Assembly: GCF_016925495.1 (NCBI RefSeq)
Contig: NZ_CP070491.1
Location: 186,001-250,000 of the forward strand
Direction of reading: 5' to 3'
DNA length: 64,000 nucleotides
From: Methylococcus sp. EFPC2
GTDB lineage: Bacteria > Pseudomonadota > Gammaproteobacteria > Methylococcales > Methylococcaceae
The notes under the pieces are model-generated. The model saw only the letters and a list, made by a program, of their open reading frames with translations. It was not told the DNA's origin and searched no databases. Shown here one piece after another: positions 12,087-23,762 of this stretch (positions are counted from its first letter, which is position 1; each line of letters begins with the position of its first letter). The translations under genes and the position numbers were made by a program.

Positions 12087-13088
12087 CTACACGTAGGGGC
12101 TCTTGTAGCTCTCCAGGACGCGTATGTAATTTGCGCGTTCGAAGGCACCGGGATTGGTAATCTTGTCGTGACTCATGCTTCCCCTCAGCGTGGAAACGGA
12201 GGCAAACCCCCGGGTTTCCATCCAGTGTTTCAGGCCGTCGAGCAGGGTGCCGAGGTGAGCCGGGCCATTGCGCAGGAGGGATGAGGTGGTCATCACCACG
12301 TCGGCCCCCGCCAGCAGGTATTTGATGACCTCATCCGGTCTCTCCACGCCACGGGTGGCGCCGAGCGAGGCATTGATCTTGCCGTGCAGCAGTGCGATCC
12401 AGAGCAGTGGCAGGCGGATTTCGCCAGCTGAACTCAGACTGAGCGTAGGGGCGACTTCCAGGTCGACGATGTCGATGTCCGGCTGATAGAAGCGGTTGAA
12501 CAACACCAGGGCATCGGCACCGGCGGCGGCCAGACTTTTCGCCATGTGGCCCATGGAGCTGAAGAAAGGGCTCAGCTTGAGGGCGATGGGAATCTCGACG
12601 GTGGCTTTCACCGCTCTGACGATATCCAGATAACGCTGTTCCACCTCCGCCCCCGAGACGTCCAGGTCGGCCTCCACCGAATAGATGTTCAGTTCGATGC
12701 CTTTGGCTCCGGCTTCCTGCATTTGCCTGGCGTAGTCGATCCAGCCCTGGCCGGTGACGCAGTTGAGGCTGGCGATGACGGGGATATCGGTCGATTCCGA
12801 AGCCAGTCTGAGGATGTTGAGATAGTTGTCGGGACCGACCGGGTAGGCGTCGAAATCGGGAAAATAGCTCAGCGATTCGGCGAAACTCTGGGCGCCCGAT
12901 TCCACCAGGTAGGAGTACGATTCGTTTTCGTGGCGTATCTGTTCTTCGAACAGCGAAGTCATCACCACCGCCGCGGCGCCGCTATCTTCGAGCCGCTTGA
13001 TGCCGTCCAGGGTTCCGGACAAGGGCGACGAGGACGCGACGATGGGATGCCGCAGTTCGAGACCCATGTAATTGGTAGTCAGGTCCAT
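12087..13088 (-). CDS. Dihydroorotate dehydrogenase-like flavoprotein
   Basis: TIM-barrel flavoprotein of the dihydroorotate dehydrogenase superfamily (333 residues). The opening MDLTTNYMGLELRHPIVASSSPL and the phosphate-binding GADVVMTTSSLLRNGP region are typical. At the position where class 1 enzymes carry the catalytic Cys in an NLSCPN motif, this protein has LNIYSVE, so the base is missing and true dihydroorotate oxidation is doubtful. It starts 9 bases downstream of the pyruvate:ferredoxin oxidoreductase gene, an arrangement I associate with PFOR loci in several bacteria. A role as an electron-transfer or reductase partner is inference. Confidence 0.85.
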   Translation of the reverse strand: MDLTTNYMGLELRHPIVASSSPLSGTLDGIKRLEDSGAAAVVMTSLFEEQIRHENESYSYLVESGAQSFAESLSYFPDFDAYPVGPDNYLNILRLASESTDIPVIASLNCVTGQGWIDYARQMQEAGAKGIELNIYSVEADLDVSGAEVEQRYLDIVRAVKATVEIPIALKLSPFFSSMGHMAKSLAAAGADALVLFNRFYQPDIDIVDLEVAPTLSLSSAGEIRLPLLWIALLHGKINASLGATRGVERPDEVIKYLLAGADVVMTTSSLLRNGPAHLGTLLDGLKHWMETRGFASVSTLRGSMSHDKITNPGAFERANYIRVLESYKSPYV

Positions 13089-13097
13089 AACGCCTCC

Positions 13098-16000
13098 TTA
13101 TTGTCGGCTCTTGAGGGTGGCATCGGGATGAAATCGCTTGCCGTCCCCGGCCGCCATCTCTTCGTAGATCTCCCATTTCTGGTCGACCACCTGCTGCGCC
13201 AGTTGCATCAGGTGTTGGCTTTCTTCCGGGTGCACGCGGGACAGCATCTTGTAACGCAGTTCGTTGAAGGCGTAGTCCTTCAGCTTGATGGTCGGCCTGG
13301 GCGAGTCGAGCACGAAGGGGTTGCGGTCGGTCTGGCGCAGCGTGGGGTTGTAGCGTATCAGCGGCCAATGCCCGCTGGCGACCGCCAGATCCTGCTGCTT
13401 CAAACCGTGCTGCATGTTGATGCCGTGGGCGATGCAGTGGCTGTACGCCAGCACCAGGGAGGTGCCGGGGTAGGCTTCCGCCTCGCGCAAGGCCAAAAGC
13501 GTCTGCTGCGGGTTGGCGCCCATGGCGACGCGGGCGACATAGACACTGCCGTAGGAAATCGCCTGCAGCGCCAGGTCCTTCTTGGCCACCGGCTTGCCCG
13601 CGGCGGCGAACTTGGCCACCGCGCCGAGGGGAGTCGACTTGGACATCTGCCCGCCGGTGTTGGAATAGACCTCGGTATCCAGCACCAGGATGTTCACGTT
13701 GCGGCCGCTGGCCAGCACATGGTCGACGCCGGACGAGCCGATGTCGTAGGCCCAGCCGTCGCCGCCCATGATCCAGATGCTGCGGCGGACCAGTTGATCG
13801 GCCACCGACAGCAGATCCCTGGCTTTTTCATTGTCCAAGCCGATCAGGGCGGCCTTGAGATGCGCCACCCGGATGCGCTGCAGGCGGATTTCCGATTCGG
13901 TCACCTGCGGCGCTTCGAGCAGTTCGGCTACCAGATCCGCGCCGATGTAGTCTTTTAGTTCCTTAACCAGTTCGCGGGCCAGGGCGAGATGCTTGTCGGC
14001 GGCGAGCCGGAAGCCCAAGCCGAATTCGGCGTTGTCCTCGAACAGCGAGTTGGACCAGGCCGGACCCCTGCCTTCCGCGTTCTTGGTCCATGGGGTGGTG
14101 GGTAGGTTGCCGCCGTAAATGGACGAACAGCCCGTGGCGTTGGCCATGATCAAGCGATCGCCGAACAACTGCGACAACAAGCGAACGTAGGGAGTTTCTC
14201 CGCATCCGGCGCAGGCGCCGGAGAACTCGAACAGGGGTTCGAGAAATTGCGCGCCGCGCACCGAGGAAAAGTCGACCTTGGAGCGGTCGTTGACCGGAAT
14301 TTGTTCGAAAAACCCGATGTTGGCCCGCTCCTGCTGCAGGATGGGTTCCTTGGGCTTCATGTTGATGGCCTTGACGCCGGATTGTTGCAAACTCTTGGCG
14401 GGGCAGACCTCCACGCACAAGCCGCAGCCGGTGCAATCCTCCAGATAGACCTGCAGGGTGTAGCGCGTCTCGGGAAAACCGCGGGCGCTGATAGGCGCCG
14501 ACTTGTAGCCTTCCGGCGCCCGTTCTAACTGGGACTGCGGGTAAAACTTGGAACGGATCACGCTGTGCGGACAAACGAAACTGCAGTTGCCGCACTGGAT
14601 GCAGATGTCCGGCTCCCAAACCGGCACGTAGGCGGAAATGTTGCGCTTCTCCCATTTCGTCGTGCCGCTGGGATAGGTGCCGTCTATGGGCAGCAGGGAC
14701 ACCGGCAAGCGGTCGCCGGCACCGGCCATCATCGGCGCGGTCACCGTCTGCACGAAATCCGGAGCCTCCCTGGGTACGGTCGGCGGCAGTTCCACACGGC
14801 TGCTCGCTTGCGACGGAACCTCGACCCGGTAAAGCTGTGCCAAGGTCTGATCGACGGCGATGAAATTCTTTTGGACGACGTCTTCGCCTTTCTTGCCGTA
14901 GGTCTTCTGGATCGACTGTTTGATCTTCGCGATGGCCTCATCCCGCGGCAACACCCCGGAGATGGCGAAGAAGCAGGTCTGCATGATGGTGTTGGTGCGG
15001 TTGCCCATGCCGGTTTCCCGCGCCACCTGGGTGGCGTTGATCACGTAAAAGGCTATCCCTTTGTCGATGATCTGCTGCTGCAAGGGATGGGGCAGATGAT
15101 CCCAGACCTCTTCGGGACCATAAGGGCTGTCCAACAGAAAGGTGGCGCCCTGCCGGGCCGATTCCAGGACATTCATCTTCTCCGCGAAGACGAACTGGTG
15201 GCAGCCGATGAAACTGGCTGACTGGATCAGATAAGGCGACAGGATGGGCTTGGGTCCGAATCGCACGTGAGAGACCGTGCGCGAACCCGATTTCTTGGAG
15301 TCGTAGACGAAATAACCCTGGGCGTGGAGCGGTGTCGATTCGCCGATGATCTTGATGCTGTTCTTGTTGGCCCCGACGGTGCCGTCGGCGCCCAGACCGA
15401 TGAACAGGGCGCGCACCACGTCGTCGGGTTCGATGTCGAAGCCGGGATCGAACTCCAGGCTGGTCAGCGAAACGTCGTCCTGGATGCCGACGGTGAAGTG
15501 ATTCTTCGGTGTGTCTTTCTGCAACTCGTCCAGCACGGCCTTGGCCATGGCCGGGGTGAACTCCTTGGACGACAAGCCGTAGCGGCCGCCGACGACCCGC
15601 GGCAGTGTCGGGAGCAGGCTGTTGCTGTAGGCTTCGGTTAGGCTGGTGATCACGTCGCCGTATAAGGGTTCGCCGGTCGCGCCCGGTGCCTTGGTTCGAT
15701 CCAGCACCGCGATGGCTTTAACCGTGGCGGGCAACGCGCCCAGGAAATGCTCCGCGGAAAACGGCAGGCACAGCCGCACGAGGATCACGCCGACTTTTTC
15801 GCCCCGCTGCTGCAGGTAATCCACGGTCTCGCGCAGGGTTTGCCCGCCGGAACCGATGATGACCGCCACCCGCTCGGCTTCCGGATGGCCGAAATAGTCG
15901 AACAAATGGTATTGCCGGCCGGTCAATTCGGCGAACCGGTCCATCTTGGCCTGCAGGATCGCCGGCAGCCTGGCATAAAAGGGGTTGACCGTTTCCCGCG

Positions 16001-16685
16001 CCTGAAAATAGATATCGGGGTTTTGCGCGGTGCCGCGGATGAAGGGGTTGTCTGGATTGAGCCCCCGGCCCCGATGGGCCCGGACTTGTTCCGAAGCCAT
16101 CATCGCGCGGATGTGTTCGTCGGCTATCAAGTAGAGCTTGTTGACCTCATGGGACGTGCGGAAACCGTCGAAAAAGTGGACGAAGGGGATACGAGCCTCC
16201 AGGCTGGCGGCCTGGGCCAGCAGCGCCATGTCGTGGCCCTCCTGGACCGAACTGGACGCCAGTTGGGCGAAGCCGGTGTTGCGCACCGCGGCGACGTCGG
16301 AATGATCGCCGAAAATCGACAATCCCTGGGCCGCCAGCGAGCGGGCCGCCACGTGCAGGACCATGGGTGTCAGTTCCCCGGCGATCTTGTACATGTTGGG
16401 GATCATCAGCAGCAGTCCCTGCGAGGCGGTGAACGAAGTGGTCAGTGCGCCGGTCTGCAGCGCTCCGTGCACCGCCCCCGCGGCGCCGCCCTCGCTCTGC
16501 ATCTCGACCACCAGCGGGATGTTGCCCCAGATATTGGTCTTGCCCTCGGACGCCCATTGGTCGGCCAGTTCGGCCATGGTGGAGGACGGCGTGATCGGAT
16601 AGATGGCGCAGATTTCGTTGATGCGATAGGCGATGTAGGCGACCGCCTCGTTGCCTTCCAGGGTTGTAACCTTAGCCGCGTTCAT
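13098..16685 (-). CDS. nifJ: Pyruvate:ferredoxin (flavodoxin) oxidoreductase
   Basis: Single-chain, thiamine-diphosphate enzyme that oxidises pyruvate to acetyl-CoA and CO2 with electrons going to ferredoxin or flavodoxin; it can run in reverse. At 1195 residues it matches the usual length. Domain I opens with YPITPSSTMAE. The ferredoxin-like domain has two 4Fe-4S motifs, CIQCGNCSFVCP and CTGCGLCVEVCP. The thiamine-diphosphate domain contains GACAGCGETPY, ATGCSSIYGGN and GDGWAYDIG. The enzyme is oxygen-sensitive in many hosts, suggesting use under oxygen limitation or for nitrogen fixation. It lies 3 bases after the GltD-like gene, so the two are almost certainly co-transcribed. Confidence 0.95.
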   Translation of the reverse strand: MNAAKVTTLEGNEAVAYIAYRINEICAIYPITPSSTMAELADQWASEGKTNIWGNIPLVVEMQSEGGAAGAVHGALQTGALTTSFTASQGLLLMIPNMYKIAGELTPMVLHVAARSLAAQGLSIFGDHSDVAAVRNTGFAQLASSSVQEGHDMALLAQAASLEARIPFVHFFDGFRTSHEVNKLYLIADEHIRAMMASEQVRAHRGRGLNPDNPFIRGTAQNPDIYFQARETVNPFYARLPAILQAKMDRFAELTGRQYHLFDYFGHPEAERVAVIIGSGGQTLRETVDYLQQRGEKVGVILVRLCLPFSAEHFLGALPATVKAIAVLDRTKAPGATGEPLYGDVITSLTEAYSNSLLPTLPRVVGGRYGLSSKEFTPAMAKAVLDELQKDTPKNHFTVGIQDDVSLTSLEFDPGFDIEPDDVVRALFIGLGADGTVGANKNSIKIIGESTPLHAQGYFVYDSKKSGSRTVSHVRFGPKPILSPYLIQSASFIGCHQFVFAEKMNVLESARQGATFLLDSPYGPEEVWDHLPHPLQQQIIDKGIAFYVINATQVARETGMGNRTNTIMQTCFFAISGVLPRDEAIAKIKQSIQKTYGKKGEDVVQKNFIAVDQTLAQLYRVEVPSQASSRVELPPTVPREAPDFVQTVTAPMMAGAGDRLPVSLLPIDGTYPSGTTKWEKRNISAYVPVWEPDICIQCGNCSFVCPHSVIRSKFYPQSQLERAPEGYKSAPISARGFPETRYTLQVYLEDCTGCGLCVEVCPAKSLQQSGVKAINMKPKEPILQQERANIGFFEQIPVNDRSKVDFSSVRGAQFLEPLFEFSGACAGCGETPYVRLLSQLFGDRLIMANATGCSSIYGGNLPTTPWTKNAEGRGPAWSNSLFEDNAEFGLGFRLAADKHLALARELVKELKDYIGADLVAELLEAPQVTESEIRLQRIRVAHLKAALIGLDNEKARDLLSVADQLVRRSIWIMGGDGWAYDIGSSGVDHVLASGRNVNILVLDTEVYSNTGGQMSKSTPLGAVAKFAAAGKPVAKKDLALQAISYGSVYVARVAMGANPQQTLLALREAEAYPGTSLVLAYSHCIAHGINMQHGLKQQDLAVASGHWPLIRYNPTLRQTDRNPFVLDSPRPTIKLKDYAFNELRYKMLSRVHPEESQHLMQLAQQVVDQKWEIYEEMAAGDGKRFHPDATLKSRQ

Positions 16686-16688
16686 GGC

Positions 16689-18329
16689 TTAAACTCCAGG
16701 TTCTGGGATCATCTCGATGGCATGGCAGGGGCACTGCTCGTAGCAGACCGCGCATCCGGTGCACTTGTCGTAATCGTAACGATAGCGCTGACCGGGGCCG
16801 AGCTTGACGATGGCCTGCTCGGGGCAACTGCCGTAGCAGCCGTCGCATTCGAAGCAATTGCCGCAGGAAAAACAGCGCTTGGCCTCGTATTGTGCTTCCG
16901 CTTCGCCGAGTCCCTTGACCACTTCGGCGAAGCCATAAGCGCGTTTTTCCGGGTCCAGTGATTCCTGCAGACGCTGCCCGGCCTCGGTGAGATACCACAT
17001 GTGCAGCTTGTCGAAGCCCACCAGGTCGTGCTTAGGCGCCTTGACGTAGGCTCCGCCTTTCAAATACGCATCGATATGGCGGGCGGCCTTCTTGCCGTGG
17101 CCGACGGCCACCGTGACGGTGCGTTCGCTGGGCACCATGTCGCCGCCGGCAAAAATCCCGGCATGGCCGGTCATCATGTTGGCGTCCACTTCCACGACCC
17201 CGTCCCGCTTGAACTGGATATCCGGCACGTTTTGCAGGAATGCGGAGTCGGTTTCCTGGCCCAGGGCCAGGATCAGCGCGTCGGCTTCCAGGGTCTCGAA
17301 CTGGCCGGTGGGTTCGGGATAACCCTCGGCGTTGACCTTCATGACCTCGACCTGGATATGGGTCTCGTCGATCTCCTTGATGGACCTAAGCCAGTTGATC
17401 TTGACGCCTTCCTCGATGGCCTCGTCGGCCTCGAAGGCATGGGCGGGCATGTGCGCCCGGTCGCGCCGGTAGATGATCAACGCCTCCTCGGCACCGAGGC
17501 GCTTGGCGGTGCGCGCGGCGTCCATGGCCGTGTTGCCTCCGCCGTAGATCGCCACCCGGCGACCGATCGAAGGGGCGTCGCCGGACGCCGCTTGCCGTAG
17601 AAAACTGACCGCATCCAGTATCTTGCCCGCATCCCGCGCCGGAATATCCACCCGCTTGCTGAGATGGGCGCCGATGGCGACGAACACCGCATCAAAGCGG
17701 CCATTTTCCTTTTCCGCCAGGACGTCCTGAACCTTGTGGTTGAGCCGGATCTTGACCCCCATGTTCTGGATGCGCCGAACCTCCTGATCCAACTCCTCGC
17801 GCGGCAGCCGATAGGCCGGAATGCCGAAATGCATCATTCCGCCGGCCATCGGACCGGCCTCGAAAATTTCGACCTGGTGCCCCAGTCGGGTCAAATGATA
17901 GGCGGCGGAAAGTCCGCTGGGGCCGGCGCCCACCACCAGCACGCGCTTGCCGCTGGGCGGCGCATCGGGCTGAATGGTCCAGTTCTCTTTCAGGGCCAGG
18001 TCGCCGAGGAAACGTTCGACGGCATGAATGCTGACCGGGCTGTCCACCTGTTTGCGATTGCACTGGCTCTCGCAGGGGTGATAACAAACCCGGCCGTGCA
18101 CCGCTGGCAGCGGGTTGTTGCGCACCAATTCGCGCCAGGCCCGCTCGTACTGGCCGGCCTGCGCCAGCGCAAGCCAGGCCTGGATGTTTTCGCCCGCCGG
18201 GCAGGCGTTGTTGCAGGGAGGAAGCAAATCCTGATAGATCGGACGCTGTTTGCGCACGGGCCCGGTGCCTTTGCCATGCATGACCAAATCCGCCGGGCGC
18301 GTCATGTCTTTGGGCGTGGATTCCATCAT
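16689..18329 (-). CDS. GltD-like NAD(P)H-dependent oxidoreductase with C-terminal ferredoxin domain
   Basis: A 546-residue flavin/iron-sulfur oxidoreductase. Near the N-terminus CNNACPAGENI and CYHPCESQCNR supply the cysteines of a glutamate-synthase small-subunit-type Fe-S domain. An FAD fold (VVGAGPSGLSAA) and an NAD(P) fold (IYGGGNTAMDAAR) follow. The C-terminal 60 residues carry CFSCGNCFECDGCYGSCP and CTGCAVCYEQCPCH, a two-cluster ferredoxin. It precedes nifJ by 3 bases. I infer that it moves electrons between NAD(P)H and the pyruvate oxidoreductase or its ferredoxin. It has no adjacent large glutamate synthase subunit, which argues against a role as GltD. Confidence 0.88.
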   Translation of the reverse strand: MMESTPKDMTRPADLVMHGKGTGPVRKQRPIYQDLLPPCNNACPAGENIQAWLALAQAGQYERAWRELVRNNPLPAVHGRVCYHPCESQCNRKQVDSPVSIHAVERFLGDLALKENWTIQPDAPPSGKRVLVVGAGPSGLSAAYHLTRLGHQVEIFEAGPMAGGMMHFGIPAYRLPREELDQEVRRIQNMGVKIRLNHKVQDVLAEKENGRFDAVFVAIGAHLSKRVDIPARDAGKILDAVSFLRQAASGDAPSIGRRVAIYGGGNTAMDAARTAKRLGAEEALIIYRRDRAHMPAHAFEADEAIEEGVKINWLRSIKEIDETHIQVEVMKVNAEGYPEPTGQFETLEADALILALGQETDSAFLQNVPDIQFKRDGVVEVDANMMTGHAGIFAGGDMVPSERTVTVAVGHGKKAARHIDAYLKGGAYVKAPKHDLVGFDKLHMWYLTEAGQRLQESLDPEKRAYGFAEVVKGLGEAEAQYEAKRCFSCGNCFECDGCYGSCPEQAIVKLGPGQRYRYDYDKCTGCAVCYEQCPCHAIEMIPEPGV

Positions 18330-19295
18330 CGCGGTGTCTCCATCAATGTGTTCGGGGTCAAGCGCGGAACGCCGCCCGCGCGTCGTTTACGGTCGGACTT
18401 GCCGGAAAGGATAGTCTTAACGTGTCGCCTCGTCCTTGATAAGTACCGAATGTGAGCGGCAGGCCGCCAGCGCCCAGCTATAGTATCCAGCCGGTCATGG
18501 CCATTCCGATGAGTGCGGAGCGTGGCGCCGAGCCTCCTCTGGCGGCTGGGGATTCGATCACCAGTCTGAGCAGTTTGCCTGACGGCTGGCGGATTTGGTC
18601 CACGTCCATGCCCAATGCGCCCGACAACAACGGTTGTTTTATCGGCGCGCTAACCTGGATGGCGAAGCTGGCTTGCAACCAGATTCCTGCGAAATTAAGG
18701 GGTGCCATGCTGATCAGAACTGGCCCTGGAAAATGGGACCCTGGCTTAAGTAATGTTGCCGTTCAGTCTGCCCGTTGTTCCCAGGCACTGAGTTCCGGCG
18801 AACTTGGCCGGACCGCTGATTCAATGCAAGAGATGGCGTGGTATTTGCTGTGTTTCGCCTCAAGCAGTCATGTCCGCATAGAAGGTAAGGGCTTAAGGAG
18901 CGCGCGCGACTGCGAGGTCTCTTCAAGGAGAAATGCTTGCAATTGGAAATACGAGCCCAACCCGAATGTTTCGTAAATCCGTTTGAGAGCCCATCCGGAA
19001 CTGATCCACGAGGCCTTCTCGATACCGCGCCGTCGAACTTCCTGCCGACCGTCAAAACGTCCGCCGGGGGGCAGGGTTTCTTGAGTAGTATGGCTCATGG
19101 ACGATCTCGTTTAGCTTCGTCCGAAGCGTTATTGGAGTAACTGTCAATTTATCAATCACTTAAACGAGGTTCGCCCATTTTTGCGAATTATCCGGGCCAA
19201 AAAACTTCACAACAACATTGCACAGGCTTCCGGCGTTTGTCGCCCGGTGTTTTTCCTAATGATTTCCCGTTTTGGTGGGATTAAGGATTAAAACG
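18330..19295. other. Non-coding or decayed interval upstream of the cytochrome cluster
   Basis: About 965 bases with no gene I can support. Open frames exist on both strands (for example 18452-18976 plus, and 18478-18708 minus), but their products have no recognisable motif and no good ribosome binding site. The minus strand at 18478-18780 reads in a fairly protein-like way (stretches such as LNFAGIWLQASFAIQ), so a decayed gene is possible. The last 100 bases are AT-rich and probably carry the promoter of the cytochrome operon. Confidence 0.5.
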
Positions 19296-20255
19296 ATGAG
19301 ATTGGATTACATGGTTATCCCCTTGATGAATAGACTTTCAGCACGCCGCTTTGTCCATCCGTTCGACGGGAAGAGGAGATTCCGACTACCGCATACGTCG
19401 GCCTTAAACATGGCCGTCCTGGCCTTACTGGCGATGTTCGTTTGCTTTGGCGAGGCGGGCGCTGCCGAAAAAGCGGCTCCGCCGCCGGCCGGCAAGGCAT
19501 GCACGTCGTGCCACGACGACTCGGAAGCCAAAGTGCACGCCCATCACAGCGATTGTTTGTCGTGCCACACCGACGCGGAGGCGCACAGAAACTCGAAGAA
19601 AATATTGCCGAATAAGGATATTGCTTCGGAAACCTGCTTGACGTGCCACGGTACCGGGAAGGGGCATACCACCGACGCTAACCGGATGAATTTCGCATTC
19701 TCCGAGCACAATAAGGCCGGCGTGAAGTGCGCAGACTGCCACGGCATACATAAACCCAAGATCGGCGAGGACTCAAATATCGCTAATCTGAAAATGGACA
19801 AGAACGCCCAGCTTTGCGCTACCTGCCATCAGGACATACTGGCGCGCTTCAACATGATTTCGCACCACCCGTTGAGGGAGGGCGCTATCTCCTGCACCAA
19901 CTGCCATAACCAACACGATAGCAAGCAAACGACCCTGGTCAGCAAGACAGAGCAATGCACCAAGTGCCATCAGGCTGTCCGCGGACCGCATGTGTTCGAG
20001 CACCCGCCCGCGGCGGAAGACTGCGCCAACTGCCATAACCCGCACGGCACGCCGAACCGCAGGCTGCTCGAAGTCGCCATGCCGATGCAATGCCTGCAGT
20101 GCCACTCGCTACCCAACAATCGCCACGGACAAACTGCAAGCACTGACACCGGCAATATCACGACCGAAACCATTTCGGGAGCCGTACTGCGTAATTGTGT
20201 GAACTGTCATGGCGCGATCCACGGAAGCGCTTTCGATCAGCACCTCAGGCATTGA
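19296..20255 (+). CDS. Decahaem c-type cytochrome, MtrA/MtoA/PioA (DmsE) family
   Basis: Periplasmic decahaem cytochrome that would plug an outer-membrane barrel and conduct electrons through it. The 319-residue product carries exactly ten CXXCH motifs: CTSCH, CLSCH, CLTCH, CADCH, CATCH, CTNCH, CTKCH, CANCH, CLQCH and CVNCH. A hydrophobic export segment (about residues 39-57, ending AGAA) precedes the first haem. The ATG at 19296 has an aagga ribosome binding site; the long N-region before the signal suggests an alternative start at 19326 or later. Ten haems and about 320 residues match MtrA, MtoA and PioA. The barrel gene follows after 20 bases. Confidence 0.92.
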   Translation: MRLDYMVIPLMNRLSARRFVHPFDGKRRFRLPHTSALNMAVLALLAMFVCFGEAGAAEKAAPPPAGKACTSCHDDSEAKVHAHHSDCLSCHTDAEAHRNSKKILPNKDIASETCLTCHGTGKGHTTDANRMNFAFSEHNKAGVKCADCHGIHKPKIGEDSNIANLKMDKNAQLCATCHQDILARFNMISHHPLREGAISCTNCHNQHDSKQTTLVSKTEQCTKCHQAVRGPHVFEHPPAAEDCANCHNPHGTPNRRLLEVAMPMQCLQCHSLPNNRHGQTASTDTGNITTETISGAVLRNCVNCHGAIHGSAFDQHLRH

Positions 20256-20275
20256 TGGATAGGGAATCAGACACC

Positions 20276-22432
20276 ATGAAAACCACAACATTGTTCAAGT
20301 TTGCCGTGTCCTTGTTGGCGATCCAGGGCATCGACTTGGCTTCTGCCGCGGAGAAGTCGGCGGAAAGCGGCAACACTGTCAGCGCGGAGGTAACGCCCAA
20401 GGCCTATTACTTCGACTATTACAAAGGCGTAGGCAGCGACAAAACGCAGTTTCTGGAACGCTACAACTACCAGATGAGCGGCGGCGACAACCGGTCAGGC
20501 TTTTATCCCGACGCCGATTTGCGCCTGCGAGTGACGAATCCGCAGCGCGATGTGTTCTCGCTGGAGCGGCAGGGTTTCGGCATCTATAACCAGCGGGGAA
20601 CCGCCAAGGCCAACACCGAGTTGTTCGGTGTCACCGGCTATTATTCGATGTTTCGTTCGGCCACCGGCGGAGTGGACTTTCTCTATAGCCCCAATCAAGT
20701 TGCCGGTGGCACCGATCCGGCCTATGCAGGACCCAGAAATAACAACACCGGCAGCGGCTACGTGTCTCGTTTCAACGACAACTCCGGTCAGACCTTGTAC
20801 AAGATCGACCGCTCCACCTACGGTGGGGGCATCGCCCTGAAGCCGGAATTGTTTGGCACGACCGTTACCGGCCGGTTCAATTACGATGGCTATCAGCGTG
20901 ATGGCAACCGATTCGGTACCTTCGCACTGGGTGGCTCCGACGTCAGAGGGGGCTTCGCCGGAACTGTGCAGCGTTGGCGCGGATTCGACATGCCGGTCGA
21001 TGAGCAAATGAACCGCTACTCGCTCAATCTAAGCGGCGCCTCGGGTAACTTGCAGATTGCCTATGACGGGTCGGTGGAAAAATTCAACAATCAGGCGAAG
21101 GATTTCACCGTCGCCAGCTTCGCGCCATTCAGCGCAAACATCGTCCCTAGCAATCATCCCGTCGACTACATGCCGGACAGCACATTGTTCACGAGCGGAC
21201 TACGCATGACCAAGTTATTCGGCCGTACTACCGTGGCGGCGGGTTATGGCATGTCTCTGCTCAAGCAGGATTCGTTCACTCAGAACCAGCTAGCCGCGGG
21301 TTATGACAAGGGCGAAATCATGACCAATAACGCCTACCTCAACTTGAATTCCGCCGAACTGTCCTGGGTAGGGCTGGAAGGCTACGCCAAGTATTACAAC
21401 CGGGAAAACGACTCGACTTTTCCGGCGACAGGACTGTTGAGCGCCACGACGGATCAGACTCTCGGAGTACGCATCAACACGATCCAGTCTTTCACTTACG
21501 GGGCGTCCGCCACGTTCCGCCCACCCGTGTTCAAGTCCACCGTGACCGTCGGATGGAAGGGTGAGGACAAGGACCGGGATCTGACCTGGACCGCAACCTC
21601 CAAGGTCGCGCCGACTTTGAATGGCATACAGCCGCAACGGTCTTTGTACAGGCAGCAGTCGTTCTCCAACGAGGGCTACATCACTTGGGTGGCGCGCCCT
21701 TTAAATGGACTGATCGTCCGGATAACGCCGTCCTACCTTAACGCCAGCCAGACCGGATTGGTCACGGAGCCGGGGGAATCGGTCAGTTTGAAGACCAAGA
21801 TCAACTACGCGTTCGATGAGCGCACGGCGCTTAGCTTCTACTACAACTACCGCAATAAGAAAAACGACAACAATAGCCTTACTTACGCGCTTACCGTGCC
21901 GACCAAGGTCGATGGAGCCTCGCTCGAACAAAGCACCGACAATACGCAGCAATCGTCCGGCATCTCGCTGAGCTTTACTCCCAACGAGAGTTTGTCCACC
22001 ACTGCCACCCTGGGATGGCTGCGCAACGATTTCTCGTCCTACTTCATTTCTTCCAACCGCAGGCGCTTCGAGGCACCGAACAATCCGGTATGGTTCAAAA
22101 CGCGGGACACGCCCAACTACCTGGTCGATACCTATGTGTTCTCGGTCGGCGCCGATCTGCAAGTGAACAAAGCTTTTAACTTGAGCGGTGGCTACACCCT
22201 ATCGCACGCCAAGGGGCACAACACGACCGGCTATATCGCGAGCAAGCTCCCCACCATCGATGAGCAGGTGGACAATACCCTGCAAACCTTGGCGTTGGGG
22301 GCGGATTACGCCTTCAACAAATTCACCAAGCTCAAGGGTTCCTATTCCTATGACTACTACGATGACCAAATCTACAGCACGTTGACCGGGGGTTACCACA
22401 CGGTGATGGTCGGTGTTGCTCTGGGTTTTTAA
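20276..22432 (+). CDS. MtrB/MtoB/PioB-type outer-membrane beta-barrel
   Basis: Outer-membrane porin-like sheath for the decahaem cytochrome. The 718-residue product has a signal peptide (about residues 1-24, ending ASAAE), then alternating polar/aromatic strands throughout. It ends in VMVGVALGF, with the C-terminal phenylalanine expected of barrels assembled by the Bam complex. Size agrees with MtrB (about 700 residues). There is no cysteine anywhere in the translation, whereas Shewanella MtrB is known for an N-terminal CXXC pair. It follows the decahaem gene by 20 bases, the diagnostic mtrAB-type order. Confidence 0.88.
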   Translation: MKTTTLFKFAVSLLAIQGIDLASAAEKSAESGNTVSAEVTPKAYYFDYYKGVGSDKTQFLERYNYQMSGGDNRSGFYPDADLRLRVTNPQRDVFSLERQGFGIYNQRGTAKANTELFGVTGYYSMFRSATGGVDFLYSPNQVAGGTDPAYAGPRNNNTGSGYVSRFNDNSGQTLYKIDRSTYGGGIALKPELFGTTVTGRFNYDGYQRDGNRFGTFALGGSDVRGGFAGTVQRWRGFDMPVDEQMNRYSLNLSGASGNLQIAYDGSVEKFNNQAKDFTVASFAPFSANIVPSNHPVDYMPDSTLFTSGLRMTKLFGRTTVAAGYGMSLLKQDSFTQNQLAAGYDKGEIMTNNAYLNLNSAELSWVGLEGYAKYYNRENDSTFPATGLLSATTDQTLGVRINTIQSFTYGASATFRPPVFKSTVTVGWKGEDKDRDLTWTATSKVAPTLNGIQPQRSLYRQQSFSNEGYITWVARPLNGLIVRITPSYLNASQTGLVTEPGESVSLKTKINYAFDERTALSFYYNYRNKKNDNNSLTYALTVPTKVDGASLEQSTDNTQQSSGISLSFTPNESLSTTATLGWLRNDFSSYFISSNRRRFEAPNNPVWFKTRDTPNYLVDTYVFSVGADLQVNKAFNLSGGYTLSHAKGHNTTGYIASKLPTIDEQVDNTLQTLALGADYAFNKFTKLKGSYSYDYYDDQIYSTLTGGYHTVMVGVALGF

Positions 22433-22491
22433 GGAAAGCGGCGGTTGTCACACTCCCTATAAACGACATTAAAAATTAAGAGGCTGAAACT

Positions 22492-23118
22492 ATGAAAAAC
22501 AAACGCAGCGTGTACATCGTGTTGGCTAGTAGCGCCCTGTTCGGCCTAGCGCTATCGGCGCCTGCTTCGGCCGCCGAAGTGGACAAACTGGTCGAAGCCT
22601 GCAGTGCTTGCCACGGAAAGGAGGGGGCCAACTCGGAAGTGGACGTACCGATCCTAGGCGGAACTTCCGCGGAATATCTCAACATCAGCCTGACCGAGTA
22701 CAAAAACAAGGAACGGCCTTGCGTGGAGACGAAAATCCGCGACGGCGCCAAGAAAGGCGGCAAGACCGACATGTGTCAAGTGGCCGGCGAGTTGAGTGAA
22801 GGCGACATCAAACAACTGGCCAGTTATTACGCGGCGCAGAAATTCGTCCGCTCCGCACAGAAATTCGATCCGGCGCTGGCCACCAAGGGCAAGAGCCTCC
22901 ACGAAAAAGGTTGCGAAAAATGCCACTCGGAAGGGGGCAGCCTCGCCAGCGACGACGCGGCCATACTGGCGGGCCAGAAAATGGCTTACCTGGACGCAGC
23001 GTTGAAGGACTTCGTCGAGGGAAAGCGCCCGATCCATAAAAAAATGAAGCCGAAGATCGAGGAACTCGACAAGGAAGACCTGGAAGCCTTGGTCCATTTC
23101 TACGGCAGCGCGCACTAG
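22492..23118 (+). CDS. Dihaem cytochrome c (c4-like)
   Basis: Exported electron carrier of 208 residues. A signal peptide (residues 1-27, ending ASAAE) is followed by two cytochrome c domains with CSACH near residue 37 and CEKCH near residue 141. Two tandem class I-like domains resemble cytochrome c4 or the c-553 family. Lysine-rich surfaces (KKGGKTD, KMKPKIEELDKED) fit a soluble shuttle. Sitting between the outer-membrane conduit and the quinol-linked NapC-type gene, it probably carries electrons across the periplasm; this is inference. Extra cysteines at PCVET and DMCQV could form a disulfide. Confidence 0.88.
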   Translation: MKNKRSVYIVLASSALFGLALSAPASAAEVDKLVEACSACHGKEGANSEVDVPILGGTSAEYLNISLTEYKNKERPCVETKIRDGAKKGGKTDMCQVAGELSEGDIKQLASYYAAQKFVRSAQKFDPALATKGKSLHEKGCEKCHSEGGSLASDDAAILAGQKMAYLDAALKDFVEGKRPIHKKMKPKIEELDKEDLEALVHFYGSAH

Positions 23119-23138
23119 GGCGACTCGATCGAGACGAA

Positions 23139-23161
23139 TCCGCCGCTTACCGTGCGGCGGA
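23139..23161 (+). other. Intercistronic hairpin between cytochrome genes
   Basis: A perfect 8-base stem, tccgccgc (23139-23146) with gcggcgga (23154-23161), and a 7-base loop. No T run follows, so it is unlikely to be a full terminator. It could stabilise the upstream mRNA or tune the ratio of the inner-membrane cytochrome to the other proteins. The aaagg ribosome binding site of the next gene lies just after it. Confidence 0.5.
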
Positions 23162-23177
23162 ATATTAAAGGTTGACC

Positions 23178-23762
23178 ATGTCGGAAACTACTCCATCGAC
23201 GCGCAATAGCCTTTGGGCGGTCTTGCGCCGCCCGAGCGCGCGCTACTCGCTGATATCCTTGCTGGGCACAGGCTTCATCCTCGGCATACTATTTTGGGGA
23301 GGCTTCAACACAGGGATGGATGCCACCAACACCCTGGAATTTTGCATTTCCTGCCACGAGATGCGGGACAATGTTTACCAGGAGTACCAGAAAACCGTCC
23401 ACTACAACAATCGCACCGGCGTGCGCGCGGTCTGCTCCGATTGCCATGTGCCCAGGGACTGGACGCACAAGATTGTCCGCAAGCTGCAAGCCTCAGGCGA
23501 AGTGTGGGGGACCTTGGTCGGCACTATAGACACCAAGGAAAAATTCGAAGCCAAGCGGGCGGAAATGGCGCAACACGAATGGGATCGGATGAAGCGTACC
23601 GATTCACGCGAGTGCCGCAACTGCCACCGGTACGATGCCATGGACATGGAATTGCAAGACAAGACCGCAAAGAAAAAGCATGGGCAAGCGTCGGCGGAGG
23701 AATCCGGCAAGACTTGCATAGACTGCCATAAGGGTATCGCTCACAAGCTGCCGGAAGAGTAA
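23178..23762 (+). CDS. NapC/NirT-family tetrahaem cytochrome (CymA-like)
   Basis: Inner-membrane-anchored quinol-interacting cytochrome of 194 residues. One N-terminal membrane span (about residues 23-43, SLISLLGTGFILGILFWGGF) is followed by a periplasmic domain with four CXXCH motifs: CISCH, CSDCH, CRNCH and CIDCH. The NTLEFCISCHEMRDNVYQEY stretch is characteristic of NapC, NirT and CymA. Aspartate after the anchor and the EMRDNV segment match the high-spin haem region of the family. The ATG at 23178 has an aaagg ribosome binding site. It completes a quinone-to-outside path with the three preceding genes and resembles the CymA partner found in mto loci. Confidence 0.92.
   Translation: MSETTPSTRNSLWAVLRRPSARYSLISLLGTGFILGILFWGGFNTGMDATNTLEFCISCHEMRDNVYQEYQKTVHYNNRTGVRAVCSDCHVPRDWTHKIVRKLQASGEVWGTLVGTIDTKEKFEAKRAEMAQHEWDRMKRTDSRECRNCHRYDAMDMELQDKTAKKKHGQASAEESGKTCIDCHKGIAHKLPEE

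Follow-up and report, generated by a model that had tools for sequence, protein, structure and literature searches.

A four-gene cytochrome and porin cluster of Methylococcus sp. EFPC2 as a putative trans-envelope electron path

Several porin-cytochrome systems are close to the locus described here, among them MtrAB(C)-CymA of Shewanella and MtoAB of Sideroxydans. A pdsA-cymA module beside mtrCAB was described for Gammaproteobacteria (PMC8805035). For methanotrophs, 'Methylococaceae sp. 73a' was reported to have a PCC3 cluster (PMC5566968), and outward transfer was suggested for a barrel-plus-cytochrome operon in Methylococcus capsulatus (PMC4831470). Porin-cytochrome clusters of methanotrophs are thus already published, of other types; the introduction of a 2026 Methylobacter paper calls CymA-MtrAB-type systems unreported for aerobic methanotrophs (PMC13322032). 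Here, a cluster of Methylococcus sp. EFPC2 was investigated, located at positions 19296-23762 (plus strand) of a stretch of 64,000 nucleotides, hereafter the window (contig NZ_CP070491.1, positions 186,001 to 250,000). Four genes in a row encode proteins with 10, 0, 2 and 4 CXXCH motifs. With a probability of about 0.76 we read them as a trans-envelope electron path, composed of a NapC-type protein, a dihaem carrier and a decahaem wire in a 26-stranded barrel.

In the literature covered, which excludes most subscription papers and all preprints, neither the clade of the decahaem-barrel pair, nor its barrel, nor a PdsA-NapC-MtrAB set in a methanotroph was found. The cluster bears on an open question, the electron exchange of aerobic methanotrophs with minerals or electrodes, and the host genome encodes, in adjacent genes, components for the inner membrane, the periplasm and the outer membrane. 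Furthermore, the clade suggests that surveys with family models overlook part of the MtrAB diversity. With Pfam no score is obtained for the window barrel, and loci of this kind could therefore enter a survey as isolated cytochromes.

The four proteins and their genes

The open reading frames (ORFs) and motif counts agree with a sequence-only reading made earlier by a model, and the observation of four such genes is confirmed as real. Ten CXXCH motifs within 319 residues, 19 further histidines and family matches covering the greater part of the length in three of the four proteins make chance untenable as an explanation.

The decahaem protein carries the signature CHQAVRGPHVFEHPP and the C-terminus GSxxDQHLRx. 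Its best NCBIfam match was TIGR03508 (DmsE/MtrA) with 168.4 bits, under the cut-off of 192.2, followed by NF041028 (GSU2203) with 153.3 bits at a cut-off of 325. The best sequence match in the PDB was 6r2q_A (E 8.6e-30); the file gives this chain an unrelated molecule name, and 6r2q is the Mtr complex according to the structure-search listing. These matches identify the protein as a homologue of MtrA, which is chain A in the solved Mtr structure. The ten CXXCH motifs and eight other histidines were invariant in an alignment of 17 rows (11 clade rows including the window, six outside rows). Among plasmids one Photobacterium record was matched (29.6%).

The barrel was modelled with AlphaFold2 from 13 rows. 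The model (predicted local distance difference test, pLDDT, 72.6; predicted template modelling score, pTM, 0.67) has poor loops and 26 strands of at least eight residues. For PioB, MtoB and MtrB 26 strands are given (PMC10654088), and an older paper counted 28 membrane regions for such porins. Foldseek placed MtrB of Shewanella baltica (6r2q_B) first, with E 1.5e-19 and template modelling (TM) scores of 0.60/0.66; a ZnuD receptor came second (E 1.1e-9, TM 0.40), and among the best 50 chains listed no other exceeded 0.42 by query length. With VIA-align 557 residues were superimposed on 6r2q_B at 3.5 Å (Z 22.9, next Z 15.7). By its model, the protein folds as a 26-strand MtrB.

For profile comparisons, an MtrB profile was made from 66 barrel-sized ORFs adjoining decahaem genes of other loci; many of them are partial, a small number could represent wrong reading frames, and hhalign kept 58. 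Five such barrels were checked with Pfam and reached 426-594 bits with PF11854. The window barrel alone matched the MtrB profile at 97.4% (hhalign), while three unrelated barrels used as controls gave 7.7-10.9% and the reversed and six shuffled window barrels 0.4% at most. The profile of the barrel family matched the MtrB profile at 98.7% over 562 columns with 15% identity; three unrelated single barrels reached 0.2, 22.9 and 0.2% against the barrel-family profile. In alignment A3 (barrel family, 13 rows; the loci L208 and L227 left out) PF11854 was matched by seven rows at E up to 0.1, the best at 3.3e-21, and TIGR03509 by one row; the window row matched neither. The sole barrel model responding to the window barrel was NF041027 (GSU2204) with 29.6 bits at a cut-off of 350. 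According to the profiles, the window barrel family and MtrB are related yet far apart.

A PF11854 match elsewhere in the genome (19.8 bits, below the cut-off), by eye a TonB-receptor-like ORF, was dropped. NF041027 was dismissed as evidence of kinship: it responded weakly in 29 of 321 class genomes, in none above the cut-off, with decahaem-barrel loci and others mixed.

The dihaem protein matched NF049874 (PdsA) with 151.2 bits (cut-off 330) over residues 25-206 of 208, and Cytochrome c domains were found. On this match it is a distant PdsA homologue, in line with the dihaem carrier proposed from the sequence. The tetrahaem protein gave 261.7 bits with PF03264 (NapC/NirT) and 301.3 bits with TIGR02161 (cut-off 310.6), and an N-terminal hydrophobic anchor was recognized by eye. 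Among the 120 loci listed below, its nearest homologue (69.8% identical) belongs to L123, from a betaproteobacterial metagenome-assembled genome (MAG) and also with a decahaem ORF. A CymA-like quinol cytochrome had been claimed; the NapC/NirT family stood, whereas nothing closer to CymA was found. No match of menB was detected in the host genome (11 of 14 control genomes respond, E. coli included) and none of MqnA (4 of 14 respond). The lack of both matches makes ubiquinone the likely partner, and probably the only quinone involved. With ubiquinone only, either high-potential acceptors or electron uptake would be expected. CymA is, going by the title of a reference, a menaquinone protein.

The coordinates are given in Table 1. 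The intergenic gaps of 20, 59 and 53-59 bases hold no terminator-like sites of the plus strand, and their shortness suggests one operon. The tetrahaem ORF spans 23172-23762 (196 aa), with 23178 as the better ATG start. In the upstream stretch no promoter was found by a sigma-70 consensus scan.

Table 1 Positions of the cluster genes and of the stretch upstream
Feature	Position in window	Strand	Characteristics
Decahaem c-type cytochrome, MtrA homologue of a separate clade	19296..20255	+	319 aa, 10 CXXCH; TIGR03508, NF041028, 6r2q_A matches
Exported outer-membrane beta-barrel, predicted 26-stranded, divergent MtrB-like porin	20276..22432	+	718 aa, 0 CXXCH; AlphaFold2 model
Periplasmic dihaem c-type cytochrome, distant PdsA homologue	22492..23118	+	208 aa, 2 CXXCH; NF049874, Cytochrome c domains
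Tetrahaem NapC/NirT-family quinol cytochrome	23178..23762	+	4 CXXCH; PF03264, TIGR02161
966-base stretch between divergent minus-strand ORF and cluster; presumed promoter site	18330..19295	.	Position only

The window lies on a 4.44-Mb contig of a genome of 4.56 Mb (three contigs, 100% complete by table). This genome contains two copies of PF02461 (434 bits), subunit A of particulate methane or ammonia monooxygenase, a family that spans both enzymes. The host is a methanotroph, as had been guessed from the window. On either flank of the cluster the nearest long plausible genes lie on the opposite strand. Divergent ORFs at 12087-18329 (minus strand) resemble, in names given by reading only, pyruvate:ferredoxin oxidoreductase (1195 aa), an Fe-S/NAD(P) oxidoreductase and a dihydroorotate-dehydrogenase-like protein; the set hints at an anaerobic side to the metabolism of this methanotroph.

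Relatives and distribution of the decahaem-barrel pair

In the seventh haem motif (CxxCHxxxRGP), the second position is occupied by Tyr in 66 of 70 sampled decahaem proteins, by Phe in two and by His in one; the window has Thr. A DNA pattern excluding codons that start with T at this place was scanned against about 85,000 genomes and gave at least 120 loci (labels of the form L### denote these genome stretches). When the window proteins were compared by blast with the ORFs of the 120 loci listed, decahaem relatives of at least 189 bits (44-76% identity) were detected in 14 loci, the others reaching 151 bits at most. Barrel relatives (E 1e-3; 33-61% identity) occurred in the same 14 loci and in none of the other 106, and there the related barrel adjoins the related decahaem gene. 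With phmmer the same split was obtained (decahaem proteins at a minimum of 195 bits in these loci and at most 149 elsewhere, barrels in the 14 only).

Eight of the 14 are labelled as betaproteobacteria and three as gammaproteobacteria. The labels are Proteobacteria FK3.bin53, Betaproteobacteria RBG_16_66_20 and HGW-6, Gammaproteobacteria RIFCSPHIGHO2_12_FULL_63_22 and HGW-2, Rhodocyclaceae C10, two Rhodocyclales and one Verrucomicrobia with groundwater titles, Thiobacillus RI_561, Lysobacterales CG_4_10, bacterium FW305_bin.15, Gallionella Ww243 and Sulfuritalea bin.273. L158 and L125 are cut or partial, and L202 is partly masked. L125 and L158 were left out of alignment A4, L202 (masked residues) and L227 (long low-complexity insert) of A5, and L125, L148, L158 and L202 of A6.

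A quick tree was calculated from 74 of 184 decahaem rows, namely the window, 13 clade rows and 60 of the 170 others chosen at random; L125, cut at the locus end, had been dropped by a filter requiring seven or more CXXCH. A branch with a Shimodaira-Hasegawa-like approximate likelihood ratio test (SH-aLRT) value of 100 separated the window, together with 13 of the 14 relatives, from the other rows; the root is the midpoint, and the deepest split is therefore not proven. Among the loci listed, decahaem protein and barrel are co-conserved in this clade. By tree and searches, the pair is a clade of its own and not simply MtrAB, MtoAB or PioAB. Of the kinship to these three that the sequence-only reading had drawn, the homology held, whereas the pair stands apart from them.

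Some loci differ in structure. The clade member with the Verrucomicrobia title (L148:4509-5261, minus strand) has eight CXXCH and by eye a lipoprotein-like start, possibly a shorter wire. The clade barrel of Gallionella (L208:3587-7165) has about 470 extra N-terminal residues resembling a second barrel, and that of Thiobacillus (L227:1929-4847) a long Gly/Asn/Ser-rich insert. Four plus-strand loci with Acidobacteria titles (L167:2315-5530, L165:4532-7870, L177:1384-4689 and L130:483-3620) encode single ORFs of 1046-1113 aa, in which the first third is MtrA-like with ten or eleven CXXCH and the rest beta-barrel-like by eye, as of a wire and porin fused; Pfam at E 0.001 recognized the cytochrome part only. 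In a MAG titled Klebsiella pneumoniae (L210), the MtrA-like decahaem gene groups in the tree with that of an uncultured gammaproteobacterium (L225), and the title is probably wrong.

The neighbours of the pair vary. Within the stretches examined, five of the 14 loci have NapC-type ORFs upstream of their decahaem gene (L134, L142, L181 and L202 by blast, L171 by eye), and monohaem ORFs were seen in several. A homologue of the dihaem protein (65.5% identical) was found in L185 only, downstream as in the window. Near the conduits of L128 (2327-4312, minus strand) and L171 (527-2563, minus strand), ORFs were observed that combine a multihaem part (8-9 CXXCH) with a cytochrome b561 domain, a possible alternative quinone link. 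With such varied neighbours (NapC, monohaem, dihaem, b561), carriers seem to be exchanged around a constant decahaem-barrel core.

MtrA homologues at E 1e-10 were detected in 5 of 38 family genomes, 41 of 251 order genomes and 27 of 398 genomes of a phylum sample, each including the host genome. The best match outside the host reached 121 bits at most, compared with 195 bits for the weakest clade member, a truncated ORF. Hence, the 250 further order genomes and 397 phylum genomes yielded no additional member of the clade, which was seen in one of the 38 family genomes. Single-sequence searches for barrel relatives gave no other hit in the 38 family genomes, 369 class genomes and plasmids. Scans of viral contigs with the alignments A1 and A2, the decahaem protein and the dihaem protein gave no relative. 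A peptide-pattern scan of the genome collection also gave no barrel relatives, a false negative of this method, as the DNA pattern later gave 14 there. The GC content at third codon positions (GC3) is 0.71-0.74 in the four genes; 19 of 22 other ORFs measured in the window have 0.77-0.85 and three lie lower (0.55, 0.66 and 0.70). Horizontal gain of the cluster is likely.

Proposed electron path and alternatives

In the proposed path, the NapC-type tetrahaem protein would exchange electrons with the quinone pool, probably ubiquinone, and the dihaem protein would ferry them across the periplasm. The decahaem protein would form a wire inside the 26-stranded barrel through the outer membrane, and its last haem would pass electrons to an outside acceptor, or take them from a donor, with no surface cytochrome from this cluster in between. 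We infer the order of electron flow, the complex of barrel and wire and the partner quinone from the similarities given above. From the sequence, the cell can probably pass electrons to or from the outside; Fe or Mn, named in the sequence-only reading, would be conceivable partners. For the direction, the transfer of surplus methane-derived electrons to high-potential acceptors when oxygen is scarce is slightly favoured over Fe(II) uptake.

Several results weigh against this path. The window barrel matched no MtrB model in the Pfam and NCBIfam searches (PF11854, TIGR03509), no Pfam family at all and no PDB sequence. With hmmsearch it reached 29 bits against the large MtrB profile at a bias term of 36; the values against small profiles were 5.2% (five short MtrBs) and 1.0% (five long ones); and with the barrel-family profile none of the 66 MtrB-type ORFs was recovered at E 1e-3. 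For the decahaem protein AlphaFold2 gave an unusable model (pLDDT 47.6), and the modelled part of the conduit is therefore the barrel. No surface multihaem cytochrome (mtrC/omcA) is present in the cluster, and no multihaem ORF lies beside the four genes. The direction was tentatively chosen on physiological grounds rather than read from the sequence.

The path had been called complete before, which was not borne out: besides the decahaem protein, Paired_CXXCH_1 found one multihaem protein in the genome, in a search that did not include the MtrC/OmcA models themselves. This protein of 538 aa (G000:C1:2838749; L240:1075-2691) resembles, by reading, a hydroxylamine oxidoreductase. The profile searches and the structure prediction of the 319/718-residue pair that had been proposed gave a divided result, with a decahaem match below the cut-off, no MtrB family match of the barrel, an MtrB-like barrel model and no usable decahaem model. 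The MtrAB-type conduit itself was upheld by the decahaem homology, the modelled barrel and the match of the barrel-family and MtrB profiles. A barrel unlike MtrB or a decahaem protein grouping with a soluble non-conduit family, named beforehand as outcomes that speak against a conduit, did not occur; 6r2q_B was the best structural match, and DmsE/MtrA and GSU2203 were the best decahaem models.

As an alternative, the cluster could be an uptake conduit like MtoAB of Sideroxydans or PioAB, which would supply the ubiquinone pool with electrons taken outside the cell from Fe(II) or a different reduced donor and possibly spare methane-derived reductant. We regard this as possible, though not as the expected case. 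It agrees with the absence of an MtrC-type gene from the cluster, the lack of menB and MqnA matches in the genome and relatives from MAGs titled Gallionella, Thiobacillus, Sulfuritalea and Rhodocyclales. However, reductant is rarely short in a methanotroph. Sideroxydans ES-1 with its uptake pathway was described without menaquinone genes and with ubiquinone genes (PMC13390432), which speaks for uptake; PdsA and CymA, in contrast, were described as parts of MtrCAB pathways of extracellular electron transfer (PMC8805035), and a Methylobacter enrichment with another conduit gave methane-dependent anodic, i.e. outward, current (PMC13322032).

In another reading, the conduit is a module serving a terminal reductase, secreted or at the cell surface, whose gene lies elsewhere, in the manner of DmsEF and its outside reductase. 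In its favour, the DmsE family is the best NCBIfam match of the decahaem protein. However, the cluster contains no reductase gene, and none was noticed by eye among the ORF starts of 10 of the 14 relatives, with no genome-wide search made; we consider this very unlikely. The least probable case is a silent or decaying island, horizontally acquired and without present function. The lower GC3 of the four genes and the occurrence of the clade in a single family genome would fit it, but none of the four frames is broken and no CXXCH has been lost, and relatives at 33-76% identity retain the decahaem-barrel pair. Doubtful, in turn, is a more far-reaching form of the proposed path. An undescribed mobile MtrAB branch, its barrel missable by family models, would be joined in a methanotroph to a PdsA-type carrier and a ubiquinone-linked NapC; depending on conditions it would either send electrons outward or bring them in from outside, for example from Fe(II), to a quinone pool possibly supplying methane monooxygenase, amounting to iron-assisted methanotrophy.

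Comparison with described systems

The cluster resembles MtrAB(C)-CymA of Shewanella and the 6r2q complex in its MtrA-homologous decahaem protein, its barrel modelled as a 26-strand MtrB and its NapC-family quinol cytochrome. It differs by the separate clade, by a barrel that alone is unreached by MtrB sequence models, by the dihaem PdsA-type carrier, and in that no MtrC is encoded in the cluster and no menaquinone gene was found in the genome. With Geobacter GSU2203/GSU2204 it shares the second-best decahaem model and the sole responding barrel model (NF041028 and NF041027), both far under their cut-offs (325 and 350), and the window barrel is without CXXCH.

As in the mtrCAB/pdsA/cymA clusters, a PdsA-type dihaem and a NapC-type tetrahaem protein adjoin an MtrAB pair; here, however, MtrAB belongs to another clade, mtrC is missing, the order is A-B-dihaem-NapC and PdsA was matched with 151 of 330 bits (PMC8805035). 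The MtoAB-ImoA(CymA)-PmcA/MtoD system of Sideroxydans ES-1 likewise has a NapC-family partner and no menaquinone route was found, but its carrier is monohaem instead of dihaem (PMC13390432). The decahaem protein and barrel of the window lie outside the clade of ordinary MtrA/MtrB sampled, a comparison that did not include ES-1's own proteins.

Four of the 37 other family genomes carry decahaem loci with flanking monohaem ORFs, barrels of 881-894 aa and decahaem proteins 33-35% identical to that of the window; one of these barrels was tested and matched PF11854 with 426 bits. The porin-cytochrome cluster of Methylobacter and other Methylococcales is similar to the window cluster in combining a decahaem protein and a porin in an aerobic gammaproteobacterial methanotroph. 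In the published cluster, the porin belongs to the MtrB/PioB family and is accompanied by two monohaem cytochromes, whereas a dihaem and a tetrahaem cytochrome take their place in Methylococcus sp. EFPC2 (PMC13322032).

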